A DNA stretch of 64,000 nucleotides from Acidobacteriota bacterium (GTDB lineage Bacteria; Acidobacteriota; Blastocatellia; Chloracidobacteriales; Chloracidobacteriaceae). How positions within the stretch are numbered: the stretch's first letter is position 1; the number at the start of each line of letters is the position of its first letter. The translations under genes and the position numbers were made by a program. Of the stretch, positions 11,753-64,000 are shown piece by piece. The stretch is from positions 1-64,000 of the forward strand of contig JACQXX010000083.1 in assembly GCA_016208495.1 (NCBI GenBank), written 5' to 3'. The notes under the pieces were generated by a model. It saw nothing but the letters and a program-made list of their open reading frames with translations, did not search any database and was not told the DNA's origin.

Positions 11753-12307
11753 CTACGGCTGAGGCTTAAATGACTGGAAAAACTGGTTAATCGCTGGTTT
11801 TTCAATTTCCGCCCGATTTCCTGAAACACAGGCAATCTGATAGAGCCGGGGTCTGGCAACAATATAGACATAGCGGCCATAGATCTTTTGGCCGGCTTTG
11901 GTTGCGGAAAAGAGCACCGAAGACGCCGGAAACCCCTGAATGACCAGTGCTTCCTGTCGTTCCACCACGCCGTCGAGTTGTCCAATCGCGCCATTGAGCA
12001 CGCTTTCCATCACCGATTGCGGATCCATCAGGTCAAAGAGCTGGGGAGGATAATCGCTGTAGGCCACCAGGCACACACTTTCCTGCGATTCAACTGCAAC
12101 CGTATGCAACGGCAGAGGTTGACCGTCTTCCGTTAAAGCCTTCATTTCATATTTCGGAGGTTGAAATCCTGGCGGGAACCACACGGAAAACCGTCCTTCA
12201 GCCGACTTGACTTCAACTGGGCGAGCTGATTGGCAGGCGATTCCAAACACGCCAAAGCTCATAATCAACACCCAGGTTGTGAGACGTGCTTGCCGCAGAA
12301 GATCCAT
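11753..12307 (-). CDS. Putative lipoprotein of unknown function
   Basis: 184 aa. An N-terminal hydrophobic segment ends in FGIACQSA; the Cys at about residue 25 could be a lipidation site although the lipobox is atypical (Gly at -3). The mature part (SAEGRFSVWFPPGFQPPKYE ... INQFFQSFKP) has the look of small DUF1795/PsbP-like beta-sheet proteins: a 'RFSV.FP' opening and a terminal 'F..SF' motif. No catalytic residues are visible. The gene stands alone between the beta-helix gene and the repeat-filled gap 12308-12968. It is probably anchored to an envelope membrane. Confidence 0.75.
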   Translation of the reverse strand: MDLLRQARLTTWVLIMSFGVFGIACQSARPVEVKSAEGRFSVWFPPGFQPPKYEMKALTEDGQPLPLHTVAVESQESVCLVAYSDYPPQLFDLMDPQSVMESVLNGAIGQLDGVVERQEALVIQGFPASSVLFSATKAGQKIYGRYVYIVARPRLYQIACVSGNRAEIEKPAINQFFQSFKPQP

Positions 12308-12465
12308 CCGTCAGCTCCTGGCACAACTTCACACGTGCAGTTTCAATTTTTCGGGAAAACAGTGACTTGCAATGAGGTGGGACAAAAGATTCGTTCAGAC
12401 GTGAACTGTCTTGGCACTCTAACGACCCGACACTGTCGTGTCAAACCAGAGAAGGCAGAACCAGG

Positions 12466-12968
12466 AATGAAGAATGTGGTTAGTGATTAGTGGTTAGTGG
12501 TTAGTGGTTAGTTCTTGGGGTTCTTTGAAAGTATTGATTTCTAAGCACTAAGTACAAGTCCCCATAAAAGAGGAATGAAATTCAACCACTCGCTGGGAGA
12601 ACCATTGGTTTTCGCCCGGATGGGCGCTGGAAAATAGCCGGTGGCCAGTGTCGCTTTGGACACGCGGCCACCGGACAGAGCCGCCATCACGGGTTCGCGC
12701 CCGGATGGGCGCTGGAACAGGAGTCGTGAGCCAGAAGCCGAAAATTCGACGAAAACCGGGACCCGAACCAGCTTTCAGCGCCCATCCGGGCGCGAACCAC
12801 TGCGGACCGAAGCTCCGGTGGTGTGCCCAAAGCGGCAAACCACCGGCTATTGTCCGGCGCCCATCCGGGCGAAAGCCAATTCAGAGTAACCGAATTTCCA
12901 CCCCTTATTTATGGGGACTTGTACTAACCACTAACCACTAACCACTAAATGGTTTCTTCATTCTTCAT
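12466..12968. repeat. Composite stop-rich inverted-repeat element interrupted by a MITE
   Basis: Outer arms are GAATGAAGAATG (12466 on) and TTCTTCATTCTTCATT (to 12968). Inner arms are GTGGTTAGTGGTTAGT tandem units (12473-12514) and CCACTAACCACTAACC (12926-12949). The core TTCTTTGAAAGTATTGATTT (12521-12540) recurs, slightly changed, at 27168-27183 and 63920-63943. A 373-bp element is inserted at 12552-12924. The minus-strand FG-GAP gene stop (12969-12971) abuts the outer arm. The remaining gap sequence 12308-12465 shows nothing recognisable. Confidence 0.8.
12552..12924. mobile_element. MITE-like palindromic element with 17-bp terminal inverted repeats
   Basis: Ends are GTACAAGTCCCCATAAA and its exact inverse, flanked by a direct TAA (12549-12551 and 12925-12927). 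Inside are four copies of CGCCCGGATGGGCG in nested inverted arrangement (12613-12626 and 12698-12711 forward; 12779-12792 and 12858-12871 reverse), so most of the element could fold into a long hairpin. It encodes no transposase; ORFs read through it are artefacts of palindromic GC-rich DNA. A 3-bp TAA duplication fits the TNA targets known for part of the IS5 family, so an IS5-type transposase elsewhere may mobilise it (inference). Insertion is confirmed by uninterrupted relatives of the target sequence at 27180-27205 and 63940-63973. Confidence 0.8.
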
Positions 12969-15773
12969 TTACAGCGGATAAACCCGCAACTGGCCGTCAC
13001 CAGTTGAAAAAATCAGACACAGCGTTTTCGAAGCGCCAACCTGAGCAATAATGGGTGAAGTGGCAAAGGCGCCAAGCGGTAGCTGCCAGACGGTATCGCC
13101 GGTGTCAGCTCGAACGGCCACCATCTGCCCATCCGCCGTACCAAAAACAAACCAGTTGAGGCCCTCGGTTGGGTCGCTTTCACGTGAGCCAAGCACGGTC
13201 ACGATGTCGGTGCTGGTCCACCAGCCAGTGCGCTTGACCAGAAAACCATCGCTCATTCGATAGATCGAAAATGTGCCTTCAGGGCCATAATTGGCACCGA
13301 TAAAGACATCCGCCGAACCAAACCCGGCGGGTGCCACACCGGGCAAGGCCGCCCGATTGATCCGCATGACGGCTTCGGTTCCAATGATTTTGGCAAAATC
13401 CCAGACGCGTTTGTTGTCTTTCGCCAGTCGAACCACACGCGCCGGACCAGCCAGCAATACCTCACTTGCCGGCAGCAAAAGAGCAGATGAATACAAATCA
13501 CCTTTCAATGTCCGGGCATCAACCGGACCAAACAGCGCTTTGCCCGTGGCACCATCGCGAATGCTGTATTTGTCATTCGAAACGATATAAATGTCATCGT
13601 CTCCGTCACCATCATAGTCGCGAACGCTCACCGCATTGCTGAAGAAAAAGGCTTCGTTGGTACGCCAGATGGTGTTGCCCTGGGCTCCGCTGAGCAGCAA
13701 GCTGCCGGTTCGTGAAATGCTGATAAAAACACCAGCGGCCTGCGCTGCCCCGAGGAACTTCCCAGTGACCATGGTGAGTGCCGTGTCTGATGGGTATTCT
13801 GGAAATGTGATTCCCCACCGCTCACGCAGGGCAAAGGTTCCACCCGTAAACGTCCCGCTCGATTCCAGGACACTGATTCGCAGTCGCCCGGCATCATTGC
13901 GTGTCACCAGGATTTCCGGACGATTGCCGGTGGTCGCGGGGATGTCGAGGTCATTGATTACCGGGATCGAAGTACCTTCAAACATTGTCAGGCTTTGCGT
14001 GGTCCCGGTCAACGGATCACAACTAAACACCCCGATCCGCCGTGAAGGTAACCGCAACAGGATTTCATTGATTCCGTCGCCATCCAGATCCGCTACCCGT
14101 GATTCAAGTTGAGACGCGGGTGCTGCCACAAATGATGAAGTCGCCGGCAGAGCTTTGCGGCGGCTCTGGGGTTCATAAAACCCGACTTTGCCGGTCAATG
14201 CACCGTTGACTTCTTCAGCCACCAGAAATTTGAGCGCGCCAGTCACCGGATCACGCCAGATGGTTCGAACATTGCCTGACCGAACCAGTGATAAATCAAC
14301 GGTAATTCCTTCCAACGTCGGCGTGGCTGTCGTGAGCCGGACTTTCCCGTTTCGCTTTTGCTGAAAATAAGAAAAGAAGAGCGGTGCCCGATTTGGTACC
14401 AGCAGACCGATTCGGGTTTCATTTGAGGCCCCAATCAGCGGCAAATCCGGAATGGACACACTACGCAGCAAATACTGTGACTGAGTGAGTGTTTTTCCAT
14501 AAAGCTGAAGGACACCGCTGTTCCCAATAAGTGAAAACGCATACACCTCAAGTGCCGAAGCCAGCGTCATCGAAGGGAATTCTTCGGTGGCCTGTGAGGT
14601 ATAGAGTTCGGGAACGCCATCACCGTTTATATCACGAATGTCCCACACATAATGGTTGGCCAGCCGGACCAGCAACACCGCATTTCCATTTGCATCCCCG
14701 GTCCCATTGTAAATGCGAATGTTTTGGGTGGTTTTGTCCCAAACATTCAGCACAATTTCGGCCCGTCCATCGGCGTTGAGATCAACAACGCTGTTTAAAC
14801 AAGCGCGCGGGTTTTCATTGGGAAAGGTTCCACCCCACAAACGGGTTGGGGTCGGGGTTAACTTAAAGACTGTAATTGCCTGCAGTTTCCCATTTCCAGC
14901 CAAAACCGGGATTTCGTCACCGATCACCACAACTTCCAGGTCTTTCGGGTCAGCATCAACATTGGCCAGGGTCATCAACCCATAGTGGCGGCCTTCGGGG
15001 TCACCTTCGCGGAATTCGGTCTGGCTACGCAACGTTCCATCCACGTTGTAAATGAGCAGCCACGGACGGCCAACCACCACCACATCCAGCACCCCGTTGG
15101 TATCCACATCCCCGATTGCCAGTTGTGGCGAGTTGAGTTGCCCTCCGTTGAGGTTTTTGACAACTGGCGTGGCATAGGTCTGGAGCTGGGAATCAAAAAA
15201 ATATCCCATCGCATCGCCTTCGGTCGCGGTGTGATCGGGAAAAACCACGATTTCCTTCCCTGGTCGCGTCGGAATCAGGTCGGCAACCTTAATAAAAGGT
15301 GCCGCCAGCAGAGTGAATTCCGGAAACCGGAAGCTGCGGCGAATCCCACCATCGGACTGAATGATCATCAGGTCCTGGGTTATAGTACTAAAGCCAATGA
15401 TCTCAGCCGGTCCGTCTCCATCGAGGTCGGTAATCGTGGCGATATCCGTCATTCCATAGAAGTTATCAAAAATCAGTTGACCGTTTCGGGTGGCTGAAAT
15501 CCGGCCATTGCGGATCATCACAATGTCAGCCGTGCCGGTTCCTGACAGGTCGCCAACCGTTGATGCGGCTGGGGACCCACCAGTGTTAATCGCGAAAAAC
15601 GTCCCTGGTGGACGTGGGGGAGTTGGCAACGGATCCACCCGCGCCGCCAGCGTGTTTTCCTTGCGATATTGCGGCCAACCCTGGGCTGGCGCCGGGGTCT
15701 GTGCCCCCACCGAAAACGTGACCAAAAACAACCACACCACACCACACACAACAGCCAATGGTTTCATAAGCAT
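12969..15773 (-). CDS. Secreted FG-GAP/VCBS repeat protein with PQQ-like C-terminus
   Basis: 934 aa with a signal peptide (1-24, cut near VGAQ). The body is one or two beta-propellers with calcium-loop FG-GAP motifs spread over the chain: DLDGDGPAEII, DVDTNGVLDVVV, DLNADGRAEIV, DINGDGVPELY, DLDGDGINEIL and DYDGDGDDDIYIV. The last 60 residues (FGTADGQMVAVRADTGDTVW) look like a PQQ/quinoprotein-type blade. It is probably extracellular or periplasmic; no catalytic residues are evident. The annotated ATG has only a weak AAAGAA upstream; an ATG two codons later (MKPL) is equally possible. The stop codon is followed immediately by the ATGAAGAATGAAGAAACC repeat. Confidence 0.88.
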   Translation of the reverse strand: MLMKPLAVVCGVVWLFLVTFSVGAQTPAPAQGWPQYRKENTLAARVDPLPTPPRPPGTFFAINTGGSPAASTVGDLSGTGTADIVMIRNGRISATRNGQLIFDNFYGMTDIATITDLDGDGPAEIIGFSTITQDLMIIQSDGGIRRSFRFPEFTLLAAPFIKVADLIPTRPGKEIVVFPDHTATEGDAMGYFFDSQLQTYATPVVKNLNGGQLNSPQLAIGDVDTNGVLDVVVVGRPWLLIYNVDGTLRSQTEFREGDPEGRHYGLMTLANVDADPKDLEVVVIGDEIPVLAGNGKLQAITVFKLTPTPTRLWGGTFPNENPRACLNSVVDLNADGRAEIVLNVWDKTTQNIRIYNGTGDANGNAVLLVRLANHYVWDIRDINGDGVPELYTSQATEEFPSMTLASALEVYAFSLIGNSGVLQLYGKTLTQSQYLLRSVSIPDLPLIGASNETRIGLLVPNRAPLFFSYFQQKRNGKVRLTTATPTLEGITVDLSLVRSGNVRTIWRDPVTGALKFLVAEEVNGALTGKVGFYEPQSRRKALPATSSFVAAPASQLESRVADLDGDGINEILLRLPSRRIGVFSCDPLTGTTQSLTMFEGTSIPVINDLDIPATTGNRPEILVTRNDAGRLRISVLESSGTFTGGTFALRERWGITFPEYPSDTALTMVTGKFLGAAQAAGVFISISRTGSLLLSGAQGNTIWRTNEAFFFSNAVSVRDYDGDGDDDIYIVSNDKYSIRDGATGKALFGPVDARTLKGDLYSSALLLPASEVLLAGPARVVRLAKDNKRVWDFAKIIGTEAVMRINRAALPGVAPAGFGSADVFIGANYGPEGTFSIYRMSDGFLVKRTGWWTSTDIVTVLGSRESDPTEGLNWFVFGTADGQMVAVRADTGDTVWQLPLGAFATSPIIAQVGASKTLCLIFSTGDGQLRVYPL

Positions 15774-16134: not shown

Positions 16135-17106
16135 ATGAAAAATCGGCTGAAGTTTTTGTGCATTCTTTTTTTCCTGGTTATACCAACCTTGCTGGCGGCG
16201 CCAGATCTTCCACTCGTCGTCTCAGCCTGGCAGCAAGTCGCCACAACTGAAGCGGCAATTGAAACGGTTGTTCACTCAAAACCAAAAACCACCAGTGGGT
16301 CCAAAGTTGACCAGGTAGTTGTCACCCATCCTTTTCCGTTTCAAGTTGGCGAAAGCCTGACCTTTGAATTTAAGTTTTCCCGATTTCCCATCTATGGCAC
16401 CATCGGCCAGCTCAACATGAATGTGGTTCCACTCGAAAGCCTCACCGATGAAGTTAAAAAAGAAGACCCTGCCCAAATTCCAGCCAGCAAGTCCGCTGCG
16501 CAAGAAACGCGATTCGGATTGCGTGCCCTGGCCGAATCCAAAGGGTTTATTCCCGCGCTGTTTGGGCTCAAAGTGCGCGACACCTTTACTTCGATTGTGG
16601 ATCTCACTGATTTTTCAAGTCTTTACATGCGAAAAGACATTGATGAGGGCAAGAAACACAAAAAACAGGTTTCCTTGTTTCAGCGTGAAAAACCCGAAGT
16701 TCAGTTTTTAGAAACTGATTTATCCGTGGCCAATGCCCAGCCGGCTGTCCGAACGATTGAAGGCGTTCCCTGGACCACTGATCTGGTGTCTTTCTGGTAT
16801 ATGTTGCGAATGCAGCCGTTCAAAGAAGGCCAGACAATTCCAATGGTCCTCTATGACGACGGTAAAATCTTTAATGTAGACGTTGTGGTTGGAAAAAGTG
16901 AAAAAATCTCGGTCGAAGCCGGAAAATACACTGCCCGCAAACTGACCATTAAAGCCCACGAAGCCCAGTTCATTCGCCGCAAAGGCGAGTATCTCATCTG
17001 GATTTCAGAAGATAAAAACCGGCTTCCACTCAAAGTTCGTTTCCGCACCAGCAGCGGTACGTTAACGGCGGAACTGGTCAAAAAGAACATTCCCAGCCTG
17101 AAGTGA
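16135..17106 (+). CDS. DUF3108 domain-containing exported protein
   Basis: 323 aa. A signal peptide (MKNRLKFLCILFFLVIPTLL) is followed by a linker and a DUF3108-type beta-rich domain (about 65-320). It opens with PFQVGESLTFEFKFSRFPIY and has the family's later blocks VPWTTDLVSFWYMLR, DDGKIFNVDVVV, VEAGKYTARKLTI and RRKGEYLIWISEDKNRLPLKVRF. DUF3108 proteins are periplasmic or outer-membrane-associated proteins of unclear role with lipocalin-like barrels. No function is assigned here. It is transcribed convergently with mltG, and its TGA stop lies at the first unit of the GGTGACAA array. Confidence 0.88.
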   Translation: MKNRLKFLCILFFLVIPTLLAAPDLPLVVSAWQQVATTEAAIETVVHSKPKTTSGSKVDQVVVTHPFPFQVGESLTFEFKFSRFPIYGTIGQLNMNVVPLESLTDEVKKEDPAQIPASKSAAQETRFGLRALAESKGFIPALFGLKVRDTFTSIVDLTDFSSLYMRKDIDEGKKHKKQVSLFQREKPEVQFLETDLSVANAQPAVRTIEGVPWTTDLVSFWYMLRMQPFKEGQTIPMVLYDDGKIFNVDVVVGKSEKISVEAGKYTARKLTIKAHEAQFIRRKGEYLIWISEDKNRLPLKVRFRTSSGTLTAELVKKNIPSLK

Positions 17107-17202
17107 CTGGTGACAAGGTGACAAAGTGACAAGGTGACAAAGTGACAAAGTGACAAGGTGACTGGGTGACAAGGTGACAAGGTGACTGGGTGACAAGGTG
17201 AC
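17107..17202 (+). repeat. GGTGACAA 8-bp tandem array, forward arm
   Basis: About eleven units of RGTGACAA with occasional GGTGACTG variants, starting directly at the DUF3108 stop. Eight is not a multiple of three, so the TGA in each unit appears in all three forward frames. It is paired with the inverse array at 17396-17457; the 193-bp stretch between them holds no gene and is AT-rich. Confidence 0.9.
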
Positions 17203-17395
17203 AATAGATCATTCTGTCACTGAGGACTGTCCAAATTTTTCTGTAACCAGTCAATTCAACCTGGAAAAACCAGGTGATCGGCTCTTTCTTTAGTCACTAA
17301 ATATTGAATACAAACAGTTTATCTAAACTTAAAAACGAGCTAAAAATCCAGTCTAGCCATTTACACAAAAAACTAAAAAGTCTCTGCACTGTGTC

Positions 17396-18498: not shown

Positions 18499-18809
18499 GA
18501 GTGAGTGCACTAGGGCTCAGGGCTGAAAAATCCTCGGGCTGAGGGCTTGGGGCTGAAGAAGTCGGGCTGAAAACATCGGGCTGAAGACATTGGGCTGAAG
18601 ACATTGGTTTTATACTATTTTGGGCTGAGGGTATCGGGCTAAGGGCTGAGGGAAATACAATTCTTTCAATAATTTAGCCTTCCCATAACAAGAGAGGTTC
18701 ATTCCAAAATGGTATTATTTCATCCCTCATCCTTCATCCCTCATCCCTTCCTTTGCTCCGAGCTTGCGAGTCTTCAGCCCCAAGCCCTGAGCCCTGGTTT
18801 TCTCAGCTC
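18499..18809. repeat. GGGCTGA-family inverted repeat pair
   Basis: Forward-strand copies GGGCTGAAGACATCGGGCTG and variants fill 18515-18660. An inverted set ending CCAAGCCCTGAGCCCTGG occupies 18766-18806, just after the minus-strand stop of the winged-helix/YggX gene. Short CATCCCTCATCC repeats lie between. Related copies are at 26818-26857, 58389-58595 and 59156-59281. No gene is present. Confidence 0.85.
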
Positions 18810-26841: not shown

Positions 26842-27222
26842 AAACCAGGGCTAAGGGACTGTAAAAATACAACTTCCCGTTTTTATCGAAAGTCACCCGG
26901 AGAGATCGAATTTCAGAACAGGAAACCACGAAATACACGAAAAACACGAAAAAGAAATCCAAAGACTTCAATGGGGTCTGAGCTTTTGTCAGGGAAAGTG
27001 CCACCGAACTCAAAAGAAAATGGCTTCGACCCAAATGAAAATCGGGAAGTAATAGCCGTGGTGCGAAGCCCACGGTCACGGCCAGGACGCGCCCAATCCC
27101 GATAAAAGCATTGTTCAATTTTCTTTTTAGGGCTGAAGAAGACGGCTGAAGAAGCTTGACTGATTCGAAAGCGTTGATTTCTAACCACTAACCACTAACC
27201 ACTCTTTAGTTTCTTCATTCCA
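26842..27222. repeat. Repeat-filled gap between cydB and the DUF445 gene
   Basis: Contains in order: GGGCTGA-type copies (to 26857); ACCACGAAATACACGAAAAA (26926-26945), also near 46332; the 41-bp dispersed repeat (27049-27089, reverse of 54474-54514); more GGGCTGA units (27127-27150); and a half-element with TTGATTTCTAACCACTAACC (27174-27193) then TTTCTTCATTC abutting the minus-strand stop at 27223. No gene is seen. Confidence 0.8.
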
Positions 27223-51189: not shown

Positions 51190-51756
51190 AATGCGCCTCC
51201 AGATTGTCGGTTGATGTGCATTGTTCGGAAGGAAAATGTGGGGCCTCGACCTTCAAGTAAACACCATGAAACCTGGAGTTACAAGCACCTTTCTAGTTTT
51301 ATGAACTGCTCATGGTTCATCCGAATAAGCACCTGAAGCTCCAGGGAAACTTCAAGTTTAACCAGTTTCGGCTGTGCCGATCTGTCATTTTGTAACTTTC
51401 TGCTCACATCGCTGTAACGCAAGGCTCACAGACCCTGGATAAGAATCCCTGTTTTCATTTCTGTCATGACTTCCCTCTAAAATCTTTATTTGTGCACGCT
51501 GGCGCAAGCCATTGATCTGGCTTATTCGCAGCAAGTGTGTGGCAACAAATAACTAAGGGAGTCGGATGGAAATATCATACCACCAGGGTTCAGGGTTCAG
51601 GGCCAGATACTCCACGTTGCGTGGTACCCGCCAGTTCCCCAGTCTTCATCTTGAGTGGGATCAGTCAACTCATCGCCGAAACCCTGAACCCTGAACCCTG
51701 AACCCGATTTCAGTGGGATTTTATGCTTTTCGCGATATGTTCGAATTTGTTTTCTG
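51190..51756. other. Intergenic region between propeller kinase and surface protein
   Basis: Divergent promoters expected. No gene seen. Contains a palindromic pair of heptamer tracts: GGGTTCAGGGTTCAGGG (51586-51602) and CCCTGAACCCTGAACCCTGA (51682-51701), about 80 bp apart. Sequence upstream (51240-51560) shows nothing recognisable. Confidence 0.55.
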
Positions 51757-54351
51757 TTGTGTCTGATGGGGATTTTTGGCACAGGATCCTGGTCACTGGC
51801 CAGGTTTCAGACCGCATCCCAGGCAGCAGGTCAAGTGACTGGTGCACCAGCAGCCGTTCCAACCCCAACCCCGAATATTTCATTGACTCAAATCGGAACC
51901 TTCCGAACTGGCAAATTTGCCGTCAGCGCGGCTGAAATCGTGGTCCATGACCCAATTTCCCAGCGCTTGTTTCTGGTCAATAGCGACGAAACGGCACCCA
52001 GCGTTTATGTGCTGGATCTTTCGGATCCGACCAATCCAACCGAAGTGATGCAACTCACATTTTCATCCGGCCCAGTGATTGGCGACCCAAACAGCGTGGC
52101 CGTGAAGAACGGTGTTTTAGCTGTGGCGCTGGCCTCCGATCCCAAAACCGACAATGGAACAGTGGCTTTTTATAACACCAGCACACTCAACTTCTTAACC
52201 TCAGTCACCGCCGGGGCGCTCCCCGATATGGTGACTTTCACGCCGGATGCCACCAAAGTTCTGGTCGCCAATGAAGGCGAACCAGACGGCGTCAATCCTC
52301 CAGGTTCGGTCACGATTATCCCGGTTTCTTACCCAGGCGGCCCAGGTTCGCTTTCCGTTGGCTCGGTGACAACCGCCACGTTTACCGCATTTAATGGTCA
52401 GGAAACCACCCTGCGCACCCAGGGCGTGCGAATCCAATCCGGCGTGGCTGCCACTGACGATTTCGAACCGGAATACATTGCCGTTTCCTCTGATTCAACC
52501 ACGGCCTGGGTCACTTTGCAGGAAAATAATACCGTTGCGGTGGTGAATCTCGGCACCAGTACCGTCACGTCATTGCTCCCGTTAGGTCTGAAGGATCACA
52601 GTCTGACAGGCAATGGCCTGGATACCAGTGATCGCGATCTGACCTCATCAACCGGGAAAATCAATATTCAAAACTGGCCTGTGTTTGGCATGTACATGCC
52701 TGATGCAATTGCCACCATGAATTTCAACGGTCAGACCTACTTTCTGACCGCCAACGAAGGCGATGCCCACGACGGTGAAGAAGTTCGGGTTTCATCCGGA
52801 TCCTATGTGCTTGATCCCGTGGTGTTTCCGAATGCTTCAACCCTGAAAATGAACGCCAATCTGGGACGCCTCACAGTGTCAAATCGGGATGGCCAGTTGG
52901 AAGCCGATGGTGACACCCAATATGAAAAAATCTATGTGTATGGCAGCCGGTCATTTTCGGTGTGGACGGCCACCGGCACCCAGGTTTTTGACAGCGGCGA
53001 TGCGTTTGAGCAAATCACAGCCATGCTCTTCCCTGCTGATTTCAATGCCAACAATGATGAAAACGGTACATTTGACACCCGAAGCGACAATAAGGGCCCT
53101 GAGCCTGAAGGTCTGACGCTCGGAGTCGTGAATGGTCGCACCTACGCGTTTATCGGATTGGAACGCATCAGTGGGATTATGGTGTATGACGTCACCAACC
53201 CACTCAGTCCGGTGTTTGTACAGTACCTTTCAAACCGTGATTTTGCCGGTGACCCCGAAGCTGACACTGCCAGCGACCTGGGACCGGAAGGCATCACCTT
53301 TATTTCTTCAGCCGACAGCCCAACCGGGAACCCATTACTGGTCATCGGGAATGAAATCAGCGGCAGCACGACGATTTTTGAAATTCGAACGTCAGAACAA
53401 TCCGTCATTTATGTGGCTGACACGCTCAATAATCGAATTCAGACATTTGATGGCGACCAGTGGTCAATCTTTACCGGGGCTTCAGTTTCGCGTGAACTGG
53501 GAGCTGAAAAGAGCATCCGAGCCGCAGCCGGTTCCAGCAATGGCCAGTTCCGGTCGCCAGAAGCCGTTACCTCAAACAATGCTGGTGGTGAAAACCTCCG
53601 CGTCTATGTTGCCGATACTGGAAACAATCGCATTCACTGGTTTGATGGAGTTCAATGGCAGGATTTTGCCACCTTTGGTTCTGGGTTCAATCAAGTGCGG
53701 GCTCCGCAAGGCGTAGTCCTTGATGCCAGCGGACAGTTTCTTTTTGTGGCTGATACCGGCAACAATCGAATCCTGCGTTTTGATGCCCTGACACCATTTT
53801 CAAATGCCACCGTGGTGGCAACCACCGGCATCGGTGCTGGTCAGGTTCGTGCTCCACAAGGACTGGCAATTGATCTCAATAACACACTCTATGTGGCTGA
53901 TACTGGCAACAATCGGATCATTAAATTTGACACGGCGACAACAACCCCTGTTTTTCAGGTGATTGCGACATCCGGTACCTCACTCAATCGCGTGCGTGGA
54001 CCACAAGGGCTGGCGGTTGATAACGAATTAAATCTTTATATCGCTGACACAGCCAATAGCCGGGTGCTGTTCTTCCCGCTTGGAACCACTGCTGGCGCGC
54101 AGGCAATTGCCACTGTGGGTTCAGGTCCAGGCCAGGTTCGGTTGCCGGAAGGTATCACGGTCGTGACCGGACCCGAAGGCAAACGACTGGTGATCAGTGA
54201 TACCGGAAATAACCGAATCCAAAGTACATCGCTCACTGATACCACCCCACTGACACTTGGAACCTGGAGCCTGGTGAATGGGCCGGGGACTCAAACCGGT
54301 GCCATCGGCTCGTTGATTGGGCAATTCAGAAGCCCAGGGAAGATCAGATAA
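51757..54351 (+). CDS. Choice-of-anchor I / NHL-repeat secreted protein
   Basis: About 864 aa. The first two-thirds (about 40-545) match choice-of-anchor I/LVIVD-type propellers: DPISQRLFLVNSDETAPSVY, PDMVTFTPDATKVLVANEGE, FEPEYIAVSSDSTTAWVTLQ, YFLTANEGDAHDGEEVRV, NKGPEPEGLTLG and LVIGNEISGSTTIFEI. The last third (about 555-864) is a six-bladed NHL propeller with repeated VADTGNNRI. The TTG start is doubtful: the same frame extends upstream into RYVRICFLLCLMGIFGTGSW, which reads like a signal peptide, but no standard start codon is in frame. Either a rare start or a frameshift near 51723-51757 is possible. Exported, function unknown. A GATGACA repeat array follows the TAA directly. Confidence 0.8.
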   Translation: MCLMGIFGTGSWSLARFQTASQAAGQVTGAPAAVPTPTPNISLTQIGTFRTGKFAVSAAEIVVHDPISQRLFLVNSDETAPSVYVLDLSDPTNPTEVMQLTFSSGPVIGDPNSVAVKNGVLAVALASDPKTDNGTVAFYNTSTLNFLTSVTAGALPDMVTFTPDATKVLVANEGEPDGVNPPGSVTIIPVSYPGGPGSLSVGSVTTATFTAFNGQETTLRTQGVRIQSGVAATDDFEPEYIAVSSDSTTAWVTLQENNTVAVVNLGTSTVTSLLPLGLKDHSLTGNGLDTSDRDLTSSTGKINIQNWPVFGMYMPDAIATMNFNGQTYFLTANEGDAHDGEEVRVSSGSYVLDPVVFPNASTLKMNANLGRLTVSNRDGQLEADGDTQYEKIYVYGSRSFSVWTATGTQVFDSGDAFEQITAMLFPADFNANNDENGTFDTRSDNKGPEPEGLTLGVVNGRTYAFIGLERISGIMVYDVTNPLSPVFVQYLSNRDFAGDPEADTASDLGPEGITFISSADSPTGNPLLVIGNEISGSTTIFEIRTSEQSVIYVADTLNNRIQTFDGDQWSIFTGASVSRELGAEKSIRAAAGSSNGQFRSPEAVTSNNAGGENLRVYVADTGNNRIHWFDGVQWQDFATFGSGFNQVRAPQGVVLDASGQFLFVADTGNNRILRFDALTPFSNATVVATTGIGAGQVRAPQGLAIDLNNTLYVADTGNNRIIKFDTATTTPVFQVIATSGTSLNRVRGPQGLAVDNELNLYIADTANSRVLFFPLGTTAGAQAIATVGSGPGQVRLPEGITVVTGPEGKRLVISDTGNNRIQSTSLTDTTPLTLGTWSLVNGPGTQTGAIGSLIGQFRSPGKIR

Positions 54352-54842
54352 AAATGACAAGATGACAGGGTGACAGGATGACAAGGTGACAAGATGACAA
54401 GATGATAAGGTGACAGAATGACAAGGTGACAAATTTGTTTATTTTCAACCTTGTCACCTTGTTGGGTTTGGGTCGTCCTGGCCGTGACCGTGGGCTTCGC
54501 ACCACGGCTATTACACGATGACCCTCCGGGCCTGAAATCCTTATCCTGGCGCTTATGGGGGGCAGGGTTTTCGAAGAAATGTCGCCCTGTCACCTTGTCA
54601 CCTTGTCATCTTGTCATCTTGTCACCGTGTCACCCTCTCTCCTTGTCATCTTCACCGCTTTTTTTCTTCCCTCCATTGCCAATTCCTGACTAACTCATAT
54701 AATCGGGGCACGTCTTTATTTTCTTTTTCCTCAGCACCTTTCATCGCATTTTTTCTTCAGCATGCATCCTGGCATTTCTCAAGACTGACCAGATCAAATC
54801 GAAGGTGCCGTCTTCTTTTTTCGTTCAACCGAGGGCCCTGAT
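54352..54842. repeat. GACAAG arrays flanking a copy of the 41-bp repeat
   Basis: Forward GGTGACAA-type array (54354-54432), short inverse TTGTCACCTTGTTG (54461-54474), the 41-bp dispersed repeat (54474-54514), then an inverse CCTTGTCACC array (54589-54655). The segment 54656-54842 upstream of the acyl-CoA dehydrogenase start is pyrimidine-rich and holds no recognised promoter. Confidence 0.85.
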
Positions 54843-58307: not shown

Positions 58308-58690
58308 GATACAAACGGCATCCTTTCAACATGTTGATCGAAACAGGCATATTACCACGCATCGGCCTCGGCGACACCCGAAGTACCGGTTTGGGGCTGA
58401 AGAAGCCAGGCTAAAGACATTGGGCTCAGGGCTTGGGGCTGAAGAAGACAGGTTGCAGAATTGGTTTTATTTCATCCCTCATCCCTTTGATCACCCCGAG
58501 CTTGCGAGTCTTCCACTCCAAGCCCTGAGCCTGACTTCTTCAGTCCGTTGTCTTCCGCCCGTCGTCTTCCGCCCGATGTCTTCCGCCCCAGAACAAGGGA
58601 TAATCGCTTGCCGCATAACGGGTTTGCGCTTACCCTGGCGGTATTCCCGTTTTATCTTCAACCAGTCAATTTTTCAGAGGAGTCTTTCCA
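58308..58690. repeat. GGGCTGA-family inverted repeat pair upstream of bcp
   Basis: Forward-strand units GGGCTGAAGAAGCCAGGCTA and GGGCTCAGGGCTTGGGGCTG (58392-58445), then the inverse set (GAGCTTGCGAGTCTTCCACT at 58498 on, and CGTCTTCCGCCCGATGTCTT at 58562 on). Short ORFs read through it are repeat artefacts. The promoters of rnj and bcp must be at its edges. Confidence 0.8.
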
Positions 58691-63853: not shown

Positions 63854-64000
63854 AAGAAGAACTGAAGAATGAAGAAACCATTTAGTGGTTAGTGGCTAGT
63901 GATTAGTTCTTGGCTTCTGACTTTTCTTCGAAAGTATTGATTTCTAACCACTAACCACTAACCACTAACCACTTTTTTCATTCTTCATTCTCAATTCTTC
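63854..64000. repeat. Uninterrupted GAATGAAGAA/GTGGTTA inverted-repeat element
   Basis: Starts right after the nrdA stop with AAGAAGAACTGAAGAATGAA, then TTAGTGGTTAGTGGCTAGTG, core TTCGAAAGTATTGATTTCTA, then ACCACTAACCACTAACCACT and TTCATTCTTCATTCTC at the right edge. It is the intact counterpart of the element at 12466-12968 and shows the MITE empty site there. Confidence 0.85.

Follow-up and report, generated by a model that had tools for sequence, protein, structure and literature searches.

A palindromic MITE family with TNA target-site duplications and a modular hairpin interior in an Acidobacteriota genome

Element, flanks and genomic setting

The window (the whole stretch of DNA analysed, 64,000 nucleotides long) carries a 373-bp palindromic element between two minus-strand ORFs. 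A gene encoding a 934-aa FG-GAP-repeat protein (12969-15773) stops 44 bp before the element begins, and a 184-aa ORF (11753-12307), which has no Pfam match, starts 244 bp downstream of the element; no ORF of at least 100 aa in the ORF list overlaps the element. The initial annotation had placed a palindromic MITE at 12549-12927, including a TAA on each side, with perfect 17-bp TIRs and four CGCCCGGATGGGCG motifs in nested inverted order. These coordinates proved exact, the TIRs match with 0 mismatches, and both TAA copies and all four motifs were found at the positions collected in Table 1. At up to three mismatches, the TIR occurs twice in the window against an expected mean of 0.12 (2 of 100 shuffles reach two), and CGCCCGGATGGGCG, at up to two mismatches, occurs four times, always inside the MITE, for a chance mean of 0.75 (one of 100 shuffles reaches four). 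Folded as a single RNA strand, the element yields -234.2 kcal/mol compared with -131.6 +/- 6.6 kcal/mol for 100 shuffles (z -15.5).

The element interrupts an intergenic repeat built of TAGTGGT heptamers. This insertion, previously read from the uninterrupted form of the repeat at the far end of the window, is real, and a third copy of the repeat lies at approximately 27164-27220. The accompanying claim that the duplication is also readable from the window stood in part. The flank of the window copy is a 7-bp tandem repeat (..CTAACCACTAACC..) that fits a register of 3 bp, or of 10 bp with one mismatch; hence, the register cannot be fixed from this copy alone, and it is taken as 3 bp because other copies of the family fix it. 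Tandem repeats of 8 bp (GTGACAAG; 17083-17236 and 54327-54456) and of 14 bp (GGGCTGAAGACATT; 18516-18615 and 58388-58459) are also present in the window.

Table 1. Positions of the element, its parts and the interrupted host repeat in the window
Feature	Position	Strand	Basis
373-bp palindromic MITE (family 1)	12552..12924	.	copies, coordinates, fold
TAA target-site duplication, left copy	12549..12551	.	3-bp TNA rule from 38 copies
TIR, left, GTACAAGTCCCCATAAA	12552..12568	+	TIR search
Motif 1, CGCCCGGATGGGCG	12613..12626	+	motif search
Hairpin module, left, TAGCCGGTGG..CCACCGG	12635..12674	+	pattern present in 13/118 class genomes
Motif 2, CGCCCGGATGGGCG	12698..12711	+	motif search
Central spacer	12712..12778	.	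inverted vs arms in full-length C28, C91, C43 and short C93
Motif 3	12779..12792	-	motif search
Hairpin module, right, CCGGTGG..CCACCGGCTA	12815..12849	-	sequence and pattern search
Motif 4	12858..12871	-	motif search
TIR, right	12908..12924	-	TIR search
TAA target-site duplication, right copy	12925..12927	.	read from sequence
Interrupted host repeat, left part (TAGTGGT heptamers)	12462..12548	.	repeat search
Interrupted host repeat, right part	12928..12970	.	repeat search
Host repeat, uninterrupted copy	63854..64000	.	repeat search

Copies in the genome and the CTNAG target

The genome to which the window belongs (hereafter the own genome) is a draft assembly of 8.4 Mb in 177 contigs. BLAST of the element against it returned 97 matches, a palindromic copy counting twice through its two orientations, with 40 of 229 first-look candidates scored. 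The 15-bp MITE end, at up to two mismatches, occurs 98 times in the own genome against 12 for a reversed control. When the ends in the fetched loci were paired, 38 two-ended copies resulted, 31 to 486 bp long, and 19 ends, three of them weak, stayed single. The further TNA-flanked copies that the initial annotation had proposed to look for are therefore present. TNA is found on both flanks in 36 of the 38 copies; the flanks are identical in 29 (20 TAA, 7 TTA, 1 TGA and 1 TCA) and unequal or altered in nine. When right flanks were shuffled among the 36 TNA copies, a mean of 16.9 were identical and only 1 of 100,000 shuffles reached 29 (p 1e-5). Of the 38 copies, 32 have C at position -4, 35 have G at position +4 and 29 have both, which identifies the target as CTNAG. 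The element is a member of a MITE family with 3-bp TNA duplications, as had been claimed from the window copy.

Among full-length copies, the closest pair is 97.9% identical and the median over 180 pairs is 90.6%. As the closest pair has different flanks, transposition is favoured over segmental duplication. A common variant interior is found in three copies of 359 bp, each at a site of its own; these are 89-93% identical to one another and on average 83% identical to the other long copies. The heptamer host repeat was found in or adjoining 6 of the 38 copies and another tandem repeat beside 9 (motif search, 40-bp flanks), while inspection by eye added a seventh copy with heptamers (C76:3807). 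Thirteen of the 19 single ends were examined by eye, leaving out one that is nearly whole (C110), two cut by contig starts (C121 and C93:178) and the three weak ones, which are 4-mismatch matches and probably due to chance. No transposase was seen by eye beside these 13 ends; they run into truncated MITE arms or other sequence, and one (C104) runs into a very short, worn copy.

A second, commoner family of small elements, with ends AGTACCTTGTCATAAGTTTCC / AGTACCTTACCGAAAATTTCC, was observed in the own genome, where these ends give 109 forward and 110 reverse matches against 2 and 4 for the controls. Its sites read TAA in all but one of 100 places listed, which fits a TA duplication. Examples are L083 (C43:59506-59839) and L076 (C130:4748-4862); none lies in the window, and two copies are nested within copies of the 373-bp MITE family.

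As far as searched, the 373-bp family looks confined to its own genome. At up to one mismatch, TNAGTACAAGTCCCCATA was found in 4 of 162 Blastocatellia genomes, the own included: 80 times in the own genome and once in each of three others, exactly in G116 and G129 and with one mismatch in G037. These three matches were taken as chance, because no partner end (at up to three mismatches) was found in their 3-kb loci and they fall inside open frames of 125, 125 and 1006 codons, respectively. BLAST of the element in 58 genomes, again including the own, gave two weak matches among the 57 relatives, both to the interior only (G034 and G026). An exact 18-mer scan of genome_contigs, a set from which the own genome is possibly absent, returned no match, and two matches in viral_contigs (L107 and L108) are single ends with no partner in the stretch examined. 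Neither the plasmid search nor the Rfam search returned a match to the element.

Modular organisation of the interior

Deletions and inversions in the family seem to break at the CGCCCGGATGGGCG motifs. Deletion between motifs predicts sizes of 288, 207, 128, 292, 213 and 294 bp. Of the 14 copies under 340 bp, 9 deviate by at most 2 bp from one of these six sizes, which with their margins occupy 8.4% of the range; the prediction was made after the sizes had been seen, and copies may share one deletion by descent. Three full-length copies (C28, C91 and C43) and a short one (C93) carry the central spacer flipped with respect to their arms, and in copy C45 both ends consist of a left arm. Such deletions and inversions may have arisen by recombination or by replication slippage at the hairpins.

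The core of the element was also found without its outer arms and within other inverted borders at C107:1141-1395 (..GCGGAAAGGTCG / CGACCTTTCCGC..) and, with a shorter form of these borders, at C4:27731-27992. Searching both strands of the own genome, so that perfect palindromes count twice, gave 168 occurrences of the hairpin pattern TAGCCGGTGG..CCACCGG, against 0 for the reversed control. The 13 of 118 class genomes that carry this pattern comprise the own and 12 others, in three families, and by eye its stems vary in sequence yet keep pairing. The module therefore probably predates the MITE and was captured by it. Elsewhere in the class, modules were seen in G002, G015, G026, G054, G131, G160 and others (L251-L270), often as inverted pairs, which stand at a set spacing of approximately 145 bp in G054 and 610 bp in G015. 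These pairs suggest further palindromic elements in the class.

REP-like extragenic palindromes are short, repeated, palindromic modules, like the interior of the MITE. Unlike them, the modules described here are packed in a TIR-bounded element with duplications. Bacterial MITEs, such as QMITE2 (Coxiella) and Chunjie (Geobacter), are reviewed in PMC10969869 and have the following features in common with the present element: they are short and non-coding, with TIRs, direct repeats, a stem-loop structure and size variants. Unlike those MITEs, the present element holds four copies of a short hairpin motif, its modules also occur outside it, and no parent IS was found. In kind this is an ordinary MITE family, whose modular interior is unusual.

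Candidate transposases and the origin of the element

We consider it likely, at a probability of roughly 0.8, that the element is a copy of a non-autonomous DDE-type MITE family with a CTNAG target and a hairpin-cluster interior, driven by either an ISAzo13-type or an IS5/IS1031-type transposase. Both the DDE class and this choice of driver are putative; the lean is to ISAzo13, because its transposase is present in the genome and ISAzo13-like tips adjoin MITEs. A transposase acting in trans would recognise the TIR (GTACAAGTCCCCATAAA..) and insert the element at the 5-bp CTNAG, and the insertion would duplicate the central TNA. Starting with G and ending with C, the element would restore CTNAG at both junctions, so that elements could abut one another. 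The interior would be a cluster of REP-like hairpin modules, present in other wrappings too, and deletions and inversions would have their break points at its four CGCCCGGATGGGCG motifs. Effects on neighbouring genes, if any, are presumably incidental.

The driver transposase may be lost, too diverged or unassembled. An IS with MITE ends was found neither in the own genome (177-contig draft) nor in 161 other class genomes (at up to one mismatch) nor in genome_contigs (exact 18-mer), so the initial annotation's proposal to look for GTACAAGTCCCC ends around an internal transposase returned nothing in these sets. It had named the lack of both a second copy and an IS with matching ends as what would speak against its reading; copies were found, the matching IS was not. 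MITE-like ends at up to four mismatches were also absent from the IS982 locus (C35, cut by a contig start) and the ISAs1 locus (C122) of the own genome.

Movement of the MITE specifically by an ISAzo13-family transposase is a prediction to which we give slightly less than even odds. Generation of 3-bp duplications by ISAzo13 is stated in PMC10045372. From 514 ISAzo13 loci in public genomes we took the best 80 (L137-L216), which belong to the subgroup of L122. An inverted repeat of at least 16/22 is present in 64, the other 16 being excluded before TNA was counted, and 47 of these 64 have a concordant TNA (33-position range), against a mean of 5.1 and a maximum of 13 in 200 for a mispaired control. 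Concordant TNA together with G tips was recorded for 43 loci (21 without), N being A in 24 and T in 19; in this group, 27 loci carry C at -4 and 27 carry G at +4, and AATAA is conserved at end positions 14-18 (82 ends, 43 loci). ISAzo13 elements insert at CTNAG and duplicate TNA, and thus share with the MITE the duplication, the target and the G at the tip.

Alone among the CTNAG/TNA families tried, ISAzo13 is represented in the own genome by a nearly full-length transposase. This single copy (L121) scores 255 bits with NF033519, for which the cut-off is 200. Inverted repeats of 27 bp, flanked by TTA at either end, enclose it, and its identity to L122 is just 30%. Its family-model match, however, begins at position 30 of 387, with an apparently frame-disrupted N terminus, and its ends (GGGAGTCGG..) differ from those of the MITE, which, unlike ISAzo13, has no transposase inside. 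No loci came from a scan of viral_contigs aimed at the subgroup to which the own ISAzo13 copy belongs. Of the 67 MITE flanks that have G at the next position, 3 begin directly with an ISAzo13-like tip, compared with 2 of 1478 window TNAG sites (p 7e-4; the score threshold of 5 was chosen once the data had been seen); one of the three flanks (C41) scores only 9.4, and one of the two null-site matches is itself an ISAzo13-like end. The PWM used, from the L122 subgroup, gives the left tip of the own copy only 1.2.

Two further ends were observed in the window. At 26855, CTAA is followed by an ISAzo13-like end, GGGACTGTAAAAATACAAC, with a score of 16.5, the best of the window TNAG sites, and similar ends adjoin MITE copies C45 and C105. 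At 51556 (one base apart in one count), CTAA is followed by GGGAGTCGGATGGAAATATCATACC, an end that resembles those of the own ISAzo13 (L121) and that the ISAzo13 profile misses (score -10.7). Copy C76:3807 adjoins this same stretch, with a GGGAGTCGGATGG.. tip that resembles the tip of the own ISAzo13.

The initial annotation had read the TNA-type duplication as a sign of mobilisation by an IS5-like transposase. We regard an IS5-family (IS1031-like) driver as possible yet rather unlikely. A TNA preference and 3-bp duplications are described for the IS1031 group in PMC12016507, and a sample of 25 IS5-type loci (21 from the same class) comprised 7 with TNA, 10 with TA and 8 with neither, 4 of the 7 lying within C..G and hence at CTNAG. 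This sample consisted of 30 loci minus nine, plus four from a scan of viral_contigs for more IS5; left out were L221 and L226 (no right side), L229, L230, L236, L240 and L244 (weak) and, by hand as unlike pairs, L228 and L245. Given that CTNAG/TNA is seen in both families, the target cannot separate ISAzo13 from IS5, and the duplication does not single out IS5. The own genome holds an IS5_4-like C-terminal scrap (a 66-aa frame) at a contig start, found by PF13359 and only weakly similar to IS5_4 (20.8 bits vs. a cut-off of 140), but no MITE-like end at up to three mismatches occurs in the 1.6 kb beside it. PF13586 and PF13340 are without a match in this 177-contig draft, and its PF01609 matches are one IS982-family and one ISAs1-family protein only. 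The MITE flank of C117 starts with an IS5-like tip, which amounts to 1 of 67 flanks against 9 of 1478 window sites. With this scrap as the sole yield of the IS5-type models tried in this genome, and no IS with GTACAAGTCCCC ends in the sets searched, the earlier attribution to IS5 was not borne out.

Likeness of the TIRs did not help to choose. The MITE consensus end, with one gap allowed, was scored against 1467 window TNAG sites and 5000 shuffles. It ranks 96/1467 for ISAzo13 ends (GGRNYCGT..AATAA), with a 2-bp insertion (564/5000 shuffles score as well), 240/1467 for IS5-TNA ends, from 14 ends only (1156/5000), and 121/1467 for IS5-TA ends (401/5000), the IS5 ends coming from the 17 of 25 loci with TNA or TA. 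Because neither the window sites nor the shuffles gave support, TIR likeness was discarded as evidence; the MITE TIR is not significantly similar to that of either family. An ISAzo13-like reading of the TIR, on the basis of a common GTCC and ATAAATA, was dropped, as it needs a 2-bp gap and a MITE-end variant that is in the minority. The IS5 subgroup of L219 and L222 is equally TIR-like, but has TA duplications in the two cases seen.

Selective maintenance of the hairpin for a role as an RNA or DNA structure (terminator, mRNA stabiliser or nucleoid site), as opposed to selfish spread, is improbable. The fold is very stable, 6 of 109 predicted pairs are changed on both sides, and the element starts shortly past the stop of the FG-GAP-repeat gene. 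However, the RNAalifold covariation term of +0.22, from an alignment of the 22 two-ended copies, out of 38, that measure 359-381 bp, lends no support, most pairs hardly varying; terminator-like sites are not in excess (1 found, mean 1.3), Rfam gave no match, and transposition accounts for the TNA duplications and the scattered copies. A chance palindrome or assembly artefact has a negligible probability: some matches do lie at contig ends (C121, C93 and C145), but it is already contradicted by the 38 two-ended copies, whose matched duplications greatly exceed those in shuffles.

Returning to the MITE family with a CTNAG target, we tentatively suggest that a Blastocatellia hairpin module may have been captured as cargo by a CTNAG-targeting ISAzo13-type transposon, the motifs making the MITE self-rearranging while its ends stay mobile. 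If so, its interior would be deleted and flipped at set points, and the element would be an ISAzo13-type MITE, of which the parts of the literature on ISAzo13 with TSD or with MITE available to us hold no report. A TNA duplication alone does not indicate IS5, since ISAzo13 elements use the same target, and a regenerating target would let such elements stack. The family would clearly exemplify how a mobile element can wrap, spread and reshuffle small palindromes carried elsewhere in the class in other settings, with a bearing on the origin of REP-like repeats.
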